From assembly GCA_015066385.1 (NCBI GenBank), contig SVOJ01000024.1:1-44805 (forward strand): DNA of 44,805 nt, written 5' to 3'. The translations under genes were made by a program, and so were the position numbers. Under the pieces are notes generated by a model. The model was not told the DNA's origin, did no database searches, and saw only the letters and a program-made list of their open reading frames with translations. The stretch is from Oscillospiraceae bacterium. GTDB lineage: Bacteria; Bacillota; Clostridia; Oscillospirales; Acutalibacteraceae. Of the stretch, positions 29,268 through 44,584 are shown in pieces (within the stretch, counting starts at the first letter, position 1; each line of letters starts with the position of its first letter).

Positions 29268-29296
29268 ATATTACCACATCCGCACCCCTTTTGCAA
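29268..29296 (-). promoter_or_regulatory. Promoter of the GPH symporter
   Basis: Minus-strand TTGCAA (29296-29291), 17 bases, TAATAT (29273-29268). Confidence 0.65.
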
Positions 29297-29370
29297 CCGC
29301 TTTGCGAACAAATTACGGTTTAGCGGGGATAAAATGCAGAAATTGTGATGCCACACAAGGATGAAATAAA

Positions 29371-29406
29371 AAAATCGGCGTGCCATTGACAAACCGATTT
29401 TTTTTG
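29371..29406 (-). terminator. Module B1: sense terminator containing the antisense -35
   Basis: On the minus strand AAATCGG...CCGATTT is followed by a T run. The loop contains the complement of the antisense TTGACA (29386-29391). Confidence 0.6.
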
Positions 29407-29420
29407 TATATAATAAAGCC

Positions 29421-29508
29421 GTAGAGGCAACCGTTTAAAGCGGTTGGCGTAATGGTTTTATTTTATTTTAACAACCGTCACTTGCCAGAGTGGCGGTTGT
29501 TGCTTTTT
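29421..29508 (+). ncRNA. Module B1: antisense RNA (putative type I antitoxin)
   Basis: The promoter is perfect: TTGACA (29386-29391), 17 bases, TATAAT (29409-29414). The RNA has a 5' hairpin CAACCG/CGGTTG (428-446 of the 29 kb block). Its terminator, AACAACCG-CACT/AGTG-CGGTTGTT (29470-29501), is followed by GC and five T. It covers the stop codon and 3' UTR of the minus-strand peptide ORF. Confidence 0.75.
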
Positions 29509-29567
29509 ACCTTGATTCTTATTGTAACGGTTATGTTACGAATATGAAATGTTATGGTAATCGGCAT
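29478..29567 (-). CDS. Module B1: cationic alternating beta-strand peptide, unrecognised family
   Basis: A 29-residue peptide starting MPITITFHIRNITVTIRI. Hydrophobic residues alternate strictly with Thr/His/Arg/Lys for about 20 positions, giving an amphipathic beta strand with a basic face, and the tail is SNNRHSGK. I do not recognise the family. Copy B2 differs at a single residue and B3 is diverged but keeps the pattern. The ribosome site GGAGG (29579-29575) is in a stem with CCTCC (29588-29584) closed by a GNRA loop (GAGA). A promoter TTGACA-17-TATAAT lies upstream. A toxin of a type I locus is the best guess; a signalling or membrane-active peptide is an alternative. Confidence 0.7.
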   Translation of the reverse strand: MPITITFHIRNITVTIRIKVKSNNRHSGK

Positions 29568-29574
29568 ACAATCA

Positions 29575-29657
29575 CCTCCTCTCGGAGGAAATTGCCAACC
29601 GCCTTCCGGCTCCTCTACGACCGACATTATTATACCGTATGTATGTGTTTTTGTCAA
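29575..29657 (-). promoter_or_regulatory. Module B1: sense promoter and structured leader
   Basis: TTGACA (29657-29652), 17 bases, TATAAT (29634-29629). The first transcribed bases GTCGTAGAGG (29621-29612) are complementary to CCTCTACGGC near the mRNA end (29427-29418). GCGGTTGGC can also pair with the downstream GCCAACCGC. The SD hairpin is CCTCC-GAGA-GGAGG. Together with the antisense unit, this accounts for the 537-base gap 29236-29772. Confidence 0.75.
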
Positions 29658-29708
29658 TATTCGCATCATCCGGCCAAGCCGAATTTGTTTTTATTTTCAA
29701 ACTTTAAA

Positions 29709-42056: not shown

Positions 42057-42136
42057 GCAATTTACCTCGTCAATCAGTTGATTTTATTGTAATGCAAGCA
42101 CACGATGCTGTCAATAAAAATTACGGAGCAGGAATG

Positions 42137-42219
42137 TTGACAAAAATACACACAAGCTGTATAATTGTTTTGGTCATAGAGGAGCCGGAAGGCGGTTGGC
42201 GATTTCCTCCGAAAGGAGG
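42137..42219 (+). promoter_or_regulatory. Module B2: sense promoter and structured leader
   Basis: TTGACA (42137-42142), 17 bases, TATAAT (42160-42165). 5' GTCATAGAGG (42173-42182) pairs with CCTCTATGGC (42370-42379), and GCGGTTGGCG (42192-42201) pairs with CGCCAACCGC (42348-42357). The ribosome site GGAGG (42215-42219) is closed by CCTCC (42206-42210) with a GAAA tetraloop. Confidence 0.8.
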
Positions 42220-42227
42220 TGATCTGC

Positions 42228-42317
42228 ATGCCCATTACCATTACATTTCATATTCGTAACATAACCGTTACAATAAGAATCAAGGTAAAAAGCAACAACC
42301 GCCACTCTGGCCAGTGA
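42228..42317 (+). CDS. Module B2: cationic alternating beta-strand peptide, unrecognised family
   Basis: A 29-residue peptide starting MPITITFHIRNITVTIRI and ending SNNRHSGQ. It is nearly identical to B1 at 29.5 kb, which lies in the opposite orientation. The alternating hydrophobic/polar pattern and net positive charge suggest a membrane-active amphipathic strand. The ORF sits eight bases after the hairpinned GGAGG. Its stop codon is inside the antisense terminator stem. The module lies between the acyltransferase start and the GH3-type gene end and explains the 377-base gap. No match to a named family comes to mind. Confidence 0.72.
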   Translation: MPITITFHIRNITVTIRIKVKSNNRHSGQ

Positions 42318-42376
42318 CGGTTGTTTAAATAAATAAAAAAACTGTTACGCCAACCGCTTTATACGGTTGCCTCTAT
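42287..42376 (-). ncRNA. Module B2: antisense RNA (putative type I antitoxin)
   Basis: Perfect promoter TTGACA (42411-42406), 17 bases, TATAAT (42388-42383). The RNA starts with nearly the same sequence as the peptide mRNA (CATAGAGG) and has a CAACCG/CGGTTG hairpin. It ends at AACAACCG-CACT/AGTG-CGGTTGTT (42294-42325), followed by GC and five T. Confidence 0.78.
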
Positions 42377-42397
42377 GGCTTTATTATATGCAAAAAA

Positions 42398-42428
42398 AAT
42401 CGGTTTGTCAATGGCAAACCGATTTTTT
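42398..42428. terminator. Module B2: bidirectional terminator with embedded antisense -35
   Basis: AATCGGTTTG pairs with CAAACCGATT with T runs on both strands. It ends the peptide mRNA and also the GH3-type gene on the minus strand (stop at 42434). The TTGACA of the antisense promoter lies across its loop and right arm. Confidence 0.85.
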
Positions 42429-42433
42429 ATTTT

Positions 42434-44261: not shown

Positions 44262-44345
44262 TTGACAATGAAAAAGATGTATTGTATACTCCAATCGGTC
44301 GTAAAGGTGTCTTGACGGCGGTTGGCGATTTCCTCCGAAAGGAGG
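44262..44345 (+). promoter_or_regulatory. Module B3: sense promoter and structured leader
   Basis: TTGACA (44262-44267), 17 bases, TATACT (44285-44290). 5' GTCGTAAAGG (44298-44307) is perfectly complementary to CCTTTACGAC (44498-44507). GCGGTTGGCG (44318-44327) pairs with CGCCAACCGC (44478-44487). The SD hairpin is CCTCC-GAAA-GGAGG (44332-44345). Confidence 0.78.
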
Positions 44346-44352
44346 TAATCAG

Positions 44353-44448
44353 ATGCCTGTAACTTTAACTTTTCATATTGGTAACTTCACTTTTACCATA
44401 CATATAAAGTTTAAAGCGAAAAGCAACAACCGCCACTCGGCAAAGTGA
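44353..44448 (+). CDS. Module B3: diverged copy of the alternating beta-strand peptide
   Basis: A 31-residue peptide starting MPVTLTFHIGNFTFTIHI, with a tail KSNNRHSAK. Compared with B1/B2, hydrophobic positions change only to other hydrophobics (I to V, L or F; V to F). Arg becomes Gly or His, and two residues (KA) are inserted before the shared SNNRHS tail. The alternation is kept throughout, a strong sign of coding selection. GGAGG lies seven bases upstream inside the same hairpin as in the other copies. Confidence 0.72.
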   Translation: MPVTLTFHIGNFTFTIHIKFKAKSNNRHSAK

Positions 44449-44504
44449 CGGTTGTTTTAACAAATAAATAACCATAACGCCAACCGCTTAACGGTTGCCT
44501 TTAC
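44419..44504 (-). ncRNA. Module B3: antisense RNA (putative type I antitoxin)
   Basis: Perfect promoter TTGACA (44539-44534), 17 bases, TATAAT (44516-44511). The terminator stem AACAACCG-CACT/AGTG-CGGTTGTT (44425-44456) is followed by GC and only four T, so termination may be weaker than in B1 and B2. Confidence 0.72.
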
Positions 44505-44552
44505 GACTTCATTATATGCAATTTTAATTCAGTTGTCAATCTTTTTTATAAA

Positions 44553-44584
44553 AAACACCGGGGAAATTTCTTCGGTGATTTTTG
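44553..44584 (+). terminator. Possible sense terminator of module B3
   Basis: CACCG...CGGTG stem with a loop of about 13 bases followed by five T after one A. It is weaker than the terminators of B1/B2, and here the antisense promoter is not embedded in it. Confidence 0.45.

Follow-up and report, generated by a model that had tools for sequence, protein, structure and literature searches.

A primary transcript that cannot be translated is described as a major hallmark of type I toxin–antitoxin loci, and in the Helicobacter pylori pair aapA3/IsoA3 the 225-nt aapA3 mRNA is reported to be inert through long-distance pairing of its 5′ and 3′ ends, its antisense RNA being 80 nt long (PMC6733600). 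The same report names hok/sok as similar, with a stable final mRNA structure that requires 3′-end processing before translation (PMC6733600), and AapA1 is characterized as having an amphipathic transmembrane helix (PMC8309996). In C. difficile, CD2517.1–RCd8 and its kin are reported to have a small toxin gene overlapped by a convergent antisense RNA gene, and the type I toxins of C. difficile and Bacillus are put at 34–59 and 28–60 aa, respectively, often in prophages (PMC6563280). According to a 2019 review, what was known of type I modules in Clostridia was limited to those validated experimentally; cytosolic type I toxins are listed in a review too, the table legend of which marks beta-sheet in some toxins.

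We analysed a 44,805-nt stretch of DNA from an Oscillospiraceae bacterium (hereafter the window) that carries, at 42.1 kb, two short convergent genes flanked by an acyltransferase gene (PF01757) and a GH3-family gene (PF03321). The pair is likely to be a two-RNA, type I-like toxin–antitoxin module that encodes a predicted beta-hairpin peptide and represents a new family; we infer the ‘toxin’ and ‘antitoxin’ roles from anatomy and evolution. Its parts, and the two further copies in the window, are as follows.

42137..42165 (+): sense (peptide mRNA) promoter TTGACA-17-TATAAT, 12/12 match, 17-nt spacer
42172..42200 (+): 5′ arm in the pairing between the mRNA ends, 28 pairs with 42349–42380 in the MFE fold; covariation
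42206..42219 (+): SD-closing hairpin CCTCC-GAAA-GGAGG, from the sense folds
ATG 42228 to stop 42317 (+): 29-codon ORF MPITITFHIRNITVTIRIKVKSNNRHSGQ, in-frame selection, family predicted to form a beta-hairpin
42294..42325 (−): terminator hairpin of the antisense RNA, then T5, within the 3′ end of the ORF
42287..42376 (−): putative antisense RNA, ~90 nt with two hairpins, its ends placed by means of its promoter and terminator
42349..42380 (+): 3′ arm in the pairing between the mRNA ends, the complement of which is the 5′ part of the antisense RNA
42383..42411 (−; read from 42411 to 42383): antisense promoter TTGACA-17-TATAAT, 12/12 match, 17-nt spacer
42394..42428 (+): terminator-like hairpin of the sense transcript with its T run, enclosing the antisense −35 box
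29364..29657 (−): second whole module copy, ORF 29567–29478, peptide identical but for its final K
44262..44577 (+): third whole module copy, ORF 44353–44448, 31 aa MPVTLTFHIGNFTFTIHIKFKAKSNNRHSAK

The original prediction, made from the sequence, had described two perfect convergent promoters, a 29-codon ORF with a hairpin-locked GGAGG and a ~90-nt antisense gene that covers the 3′ end of the ORF and closes with a hairpin-T5 terminator, and all three parts are borne out at the DNA level. Both promoters are of the sigma-A type. CCTCC at 42206–42210 pairs with GGAGG at 42215–42219 across a GAAA loop in each of the three sense folds computed, and AGGAGGTGATC stands upstream of the ORF. The start of the antisense RNA near 42376 was taken from the −10 box, and the predicted RNA (42287..42376) has a fold z-score of −4.8. 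Read on the plus strand, its terminator hairpin (42325–42294) consists of the codons for the peptide tail NNRHSGQ and the stop. The acyltransferase gene is preceded by a further promoter, TTGACA-17-TACAAT at 42086–42114 (−), which stands back to back with the module's sense promoter.

Overlap of a toxin gene by a convergent antisense RNA gene is also the arrangement of txpA/ratA and bsrG/SR4 in Bacillus, whereas hok/sok differs in antisense position, in toxin size and in its helix. The overall plan is close to that of aapA/IsoA as described for H. pylori, with an end-paired mRNA, SD-sequestering hairpins, an antisense RNA and several chromosomal copies (PMC6733600); the 5′–3′ pairing and the antisense RNA of ~80 nt of that system have predicted counterparts here, the RNA being ~90 nt. 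Unlike aapA/IsoA, the window family occurs in a different phylum, has its antisense terminator inside the ORF and encodes a predicted beta-hairpin. Our best reading is that the RNA control resembles that of aapA/IsoA and txpA/ratA, the difference being the predicted beta-hairpin in place of a transmembrane helix, and with this family one could examine directly whether beta structure is possible in a type I toxin.

Copies in the genome and database searches

Three copies within 15 kb had been predicted, and we recovered them at 29364–29657 (−), 42137–42430 (+) and 44262–44577 (+), the sense promoter of the third scoring 11/12 (TATACT). When up to 3 mismatches were allowed, a 29-nt segment of the ORF occurred twice in the window, versus 0 times in 100 shuffles. 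The genome from which the window comes (3.17 Mb, 52 contigs) carries 9 module copies; this number goes beyond the original prediction, as do the mRNA end pairing and the encoding of the peptide tail by the antisense terminator stem. All nine copies have an open ORF of 29 or 31 codons, lengths that are six bases apart and in frame, and one begins with GTG. The third window copy is missing at the orthologous site of another species of the same genus (genome G187), where ~13 nt stand for ~330. At the second copy (window 29278–29693), synteny with G187 breaks, the left flank matching its contig C2 and the right flank C18. The end of the window's contig (44675–44805, GGACACAGAGGGGGTATTTTTTGGACA) resembles the end of an insertion sequence.

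Rfam returned 0 matches at the gathering threshold; at E up to 10 it gave 28 sub-threshold matches, the top one at 24.8 bits versus a cut-off of 56, with BsrG at 10.4 bits versus a cut-off of 55. For homology to aapA/IsoA, too, Rfam was without a match, and the likeness to AapA is one of description. Searches of Pfam and NCBIfam with 26 members of the peptide family had best E values of 0.022 and 0.059, respectively, each from a single member and rejected; the window peptides matched 0 families. The best E in PHROGs was 0.011 (two members), PADLOC and the PDB sequences gave none, and tblastn against phage and plasmid records found one weak match each (E 9 and 0.1) with no annotated feature beneath. 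Six characteristic peptide strings were absent from open-licence PMC papers, and among the papers listed by topic no title or abstract start described the module family. Since none of Rfam, Pfam, NCBIfam, PHROGs, PADLOC and the PDB sequences gave a significant match, the peptide/antisense family is apparently unnamed, in line with the original prediction, for which no named family with this sequence was known. Routine gene calling usually misses ORFs this short.

One candidate, YrzI (PF09501), was rejected. It matched 1 of the 26 members at E 0.027, and its profile finds nothing in the genome of the window at E ≤ 1; the profile also gives matches in 7 of 14 control genomes, archaea included, though above the cut-off in 1 only.

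Selection on the peptide and its predicted fold

From codons 1–16 in a set of 145 distinct ORFs, we obtained a pN/pS of 0.198 in frame versus 1.58 and 2.93 in the other two frames (1860 pairs, which are not independent, from a set pre-filtered by peptide HMM). The ORF is under purifying selection, and the conservation check attached to the original prediction comes out on the side of the peptide, which is conserved, and not the RNA alone. Within ORFs of the MRIT class (n = 54), the codons for Val 12 are mixed (GTG 17, GTT 14, GTC 14 and GTA 6), and residues outside the class-defining motif are retained: H6 in 53/54, V12 in 51/54, T13 in 54/54 and I14 in 53/54. The 26 members have the consensus MPITLTFHIxxxTVTIxVKSxNRHSAK, with T6 invariant and H8 nearly so, and peptide length across the family is 25–34 residues.

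Along the peptide, hydrophobic positions take turns with Thr, His or basic residues. AlphaFold2, given the 31-residue paralogue and 25 relatives, confidently models a two-stranded hairpin with strands at 2–9 and 12–19 (mean pLDDT 89 over residues 1–20, pTM 0.32) and a loose tail, in which the alternation would put the hydrophobic residues on one face and mainly Thr and His on the other. The suggestion that the alternating peptide is unlike alpha-helical toxins is therefore consistent with the model: judged by both the AlphaFold2 strands and the residue alternation, the peptide is predicted to lack the alpha-helical transmembrane segment of the Hok, Fst, Ibs, TxpA and AapA class. The CD2517.1, txpA and bsrG toxins have a transmembrane segment and a charged C-terminus, whereas in the window peptide hydrophobic residues alternate with Thr/His.

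Lysine codons ahead of the terminator stem supply the T run of the antisense RNA. At one locus (L194) the ORF stops ahead of the stem and the stem itself is retained, and at four others (L193, L195, L198 and L204) the tail is altered or extended; a stem kept in the first and tails varied in the rest suggest that the peptide can probably do without the tail, which would be retained for the RNA.

Strong selection on a short, cationic, amphipathic peptide that recalls beta-hairpin antimicrobial peptides would also suit a product throttled by antisense RNA and not toxic to its own cell, such as a secreted bacteriocin-like or signalling beta-hairpin. We regard this as unlikely, although it is the strongest of the alternatives, because no widely recurring neighbour gene was found within 3.5 kb of 110 loci (25 largest groups of similar ORFs, a part of them named) and because antisense genes that outlast the peptide, described below, suit an addiction module better.

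Pairing between the mRNA ends

Folding of the full sense RNA, as predicted, gives −104.8 kcal/mol, versus −55.8 ± 4.6 for shuffles (z −10.7). For pairing tests across the family, 157 modules were thinned by shared 8-mers to 128, of which 109 had both anchors and 103 full arms. The longest run of 5′–3′ pairs reached at least 11 in 115 of the 128 non-redundant modules (range 7–19, median 14), versus 53–58 of 128 with swapped partners (median 10), whose runs are still long because the core is shared. Beyond the GGCGGT core, the run extended 4.83 nt with a module's own partner versus 2.19 ± 0.13 nt with swapped ones (n = 109), the maximum of 2000 shuffles being 2.78. Five consecutive arm positions pair in 100–104 of the 109 modules, with up to six standard pair types per position, so the mRNA ends covary. 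Among the non-Watson–Crick exceptions, G-U outnumbers A-C both inside (67 versus 9) and outside the core end (165 versus 12, the outer G-U falling mostly at two conserved positions), for a total of 232 versus 21. This excess indicates that the pairing is in the sense RNA, as DNA palindromes or pairing in the other strand would show no such bias. A stem of at least 5 pairs over the SD is present in 79 of the 128 modules, a count with no control computed, and the SD hairpin is not universal.

Since the repeat at the mRNA ends is inverted, the antisense RNA and the mRNA would begin with nearly identical sequence, and with this shared start the antisense RNA and the mRNA 5′ end would compete for a single mRNA 3′ arm. 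In the enterococcal par/fst locus, short convergent RNAs likewise have a repeated sequence at both 5′ ends. Direct repeats in par render its two RNAs complementary, whereas the repeats of the window family are inverted, so that the RNAs start alike and the mRNA is predicted to close on itself. The family offers a clean system for RNA end-to-end locking, natural covariation included.

The same pairing weighs against a small, non-autonomous, MITE-like mobile element whose inverted repeat and copies stem from transposition and whose promoters and ORF are passengers. Such an element would account for the 9 copies in the genome, the clean presence or absence of the whole module between two species, the patchy distribution and tandem arrays such as that at L059 (5 sites ~450 bp apart). 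The inverted repeat, however, is internal and is kept as sense-strand RNA pairing (G-U 232 versus A-C 21), inspection by eye shows no target-site duplication at the single empty site seen (in G187) and the ORF is under purifying selection, all of which makes this origin very improbable.

Promoter decay, proposed mechanism and distribution

A 24-base pattern from the shared terminator retrieved 25 viral-contig stretches and at least 120 genome-contig stretches. Among the matches listed, 156 pattern sites were considered and 15 without full flanks were dropped, leaving 141, of which 109 have an intact peptide as called by an HMM of 26 peptides; an earlier regular-expression filter had missed the MRITLHIG class. 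These sets contain paralogues and related genomes, so their counts are not independent events. Promoters were scored as consensus matches out of 12, minus half a point for a spacer of 16 or 18.

At the expected place, an antisense promoter of at least 10/12 is present in 103 of the 109 intact-peptide sites and a sense promoter in 66, each versus 6 of 683 control windows placed by shifting. With scores of at least 11 in 92/109 sites, versus 39/109 for the sense promoter, the antisense promoter tends to be the stronger of the two. To avoid selection by the terminator, we repeated the test on sites found by the peptide profile alone: an antisense promoter of at least 9.5 occurred in 54/56 sites (controls 10/205) and a sense promoter in 37/56 (controls 7/205), the 56 including paralogues and the window's own copies and following removal of 11 of 67 matches that lay at a sequence edge or started after model position 4. 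Past the terminator stem, the antisense strand has at least 4 T in eight bases in 91 of 103 members (chance 10.7%). A strict sense terminator occurs in 30 of 99 members, 4 of the 103 having been dropped for short flanks, versus 8 of 329 control windows; as at the window's 42.1-kb module, it extends over the antisense −35 box in 18 of these 30. Two generic traits of type I loci are seen in the family: a short ORF that is conserved as a peptide and has a ribosome-binding site and, at part of the sites, a good promoter of its own, and, at the DNA level, an antisense RNA gene, with conserved promoter and terminator, that overlaps the mRNA.

Loss of these parts is one-sided. Among the 32 sites without an intact peptide, which include chance pattern matches such as L132 (Polaromonas) and L161 (Nocardioides), the antisense promoter is kept in 21 and the sense promoter in 4, in a sample that was picked by the terminator and is therefore biased toward finding the antisense gene. 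Few intact-peptide sites (6/109) have an antisense promoter that scores below 10. An antisense promoter that outlasts the peptide, with the reverse rare, is the pattern expected if the peptide is harmful once the RNA is lost, and the orphan antisense genes look like immunity against addiction. A regulatory sRNA as the real product, with an incidental ORF, would fit the strong antisense promoter in 21/32 sites without an intact peptide, some of them in tandem with further antisense units (L066, L107, L111 and L155), and is the least probable reading of all, given a pN/pS of 0.198 in frame only and a peptide kept in 109/141 sites among the matches listed. At those same four loci, the terminator of the orphan antisense gene abuts the apparent antisense promoter of the further unit, and they look like tandem antitoxin-like RNA genes.

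The proposal of a new type I-like family thus holds at the level of sequence predictions, with a conserved ORF, an antisense promoter and terminator, a locked mRNA and a beta-hairpin; from these we infer transcription, inertness, antisense action, toxicity and a target, as follows. The sense promoter would make an mRNA of ~260 nt, with ends that pair mutually and a hairpin that closes off the ribosome-binding site; judged by folding and covariation, this should leave the primary transcript inert. The convergent promoter, usually the stronger of the two, would yield a short antisense RNA that overlaps the last part of the ORF and some of the mRNA's 3′ half, and that should clear trimmed or opened mRNA through RNase III cleavage or blocked translation. 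If the antisense supply drops, or the mRNA loses its 3′ end, the amphipathic, cationic beta-hairpin peptide of 25–34 residues would be made and would slow or harm the cell, most likely at the membrane or through beta-sheet assembly; action by membrane damage or beta-sheet assembly is our preferred guess, perhaps evenly balanced against other modes. Points that weigh against the toxin–antitoxin reading are the many sites with a sense promoter below 10/12, the low share of members with a strict sense terminator, the SD hairpin that some members lack and the occurrence of paralogues and related genomes in the sets.

More tentatively, and with somewhat less than even confidence, we suggest a class of beta-hairpin type I toxins of 25–34 residues whose strands may assemble into a small membrane beta-barrel, lined by the conserved Thr/His, or add a strand to a host protein. 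In this class the RNA lock would entail near-identical starts of mRNA and antitoxin, the C-terminal tail of the toxin would be the antitoxin terminator read in frame, and the whole would amount to an addiction module that is common in gut Oscillospirales and Lachnospirales and has escaped annotation.

The likely type I-like module occurs in many gut Clostridia, cultured species among them: intact peptides are found in Gemmiger formicilis, Evtepia gabavorous, Pseudoflavonifractor capillosus, Oscillibacter valericigenes and Yanshouia hominis. Among the matches listed, genome records with an intact peptide are titled Clostridia or unassigned Firmicutes or bacteria, and the three clear outsiders (Polaromonas, a Verrucomicrobiae bacterium and Nocardioides) are all without one. 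With a profile of the eight distinct peptides of the window's genome, 7 of 200 sampled genomes of the family were carriers; a wider peptide profile found carriers in 22 of 394 genomes sampled from the order and in 5 of 398 from the phylum, the own genome being included throughout. Matches to the peptide profile reach 10 in one genome, and the module is therefore patchy and multicopy.

The largest groups of neighbouring ORFs (6–9 loci) are frames that overlap the module itself, and the next (4 loci) are mostly phage tail genes. Five loci (L036, L038, L040, L055 and L150) have neighbours in common that look like phage tail genes; PHROGs confirms a tail sheath and a tail protein (tube position) at L040 and L150, and an XkdN-like gene at L040. 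At L040:4070–4426 and L150:1738–2038, the modules are placed between tail genes of prophage-like regions.

A divergent branch (L205–L214, L216, L218, L219, L221 and L222, in genomes G757, G782 and G896) belongs to one other genus of the phylum and has up to 10 matches per genome, mostly TAG stops, tails such as THKKNRHS and the same architecture. The array at L059:397–2205 (Lachnospiraceae UBA3287) holds five terminator sites in tandem, ~450 bp apart, one without an intact peptide and four with peptides of two classes (MPITLT.. and MRITLHIG..).
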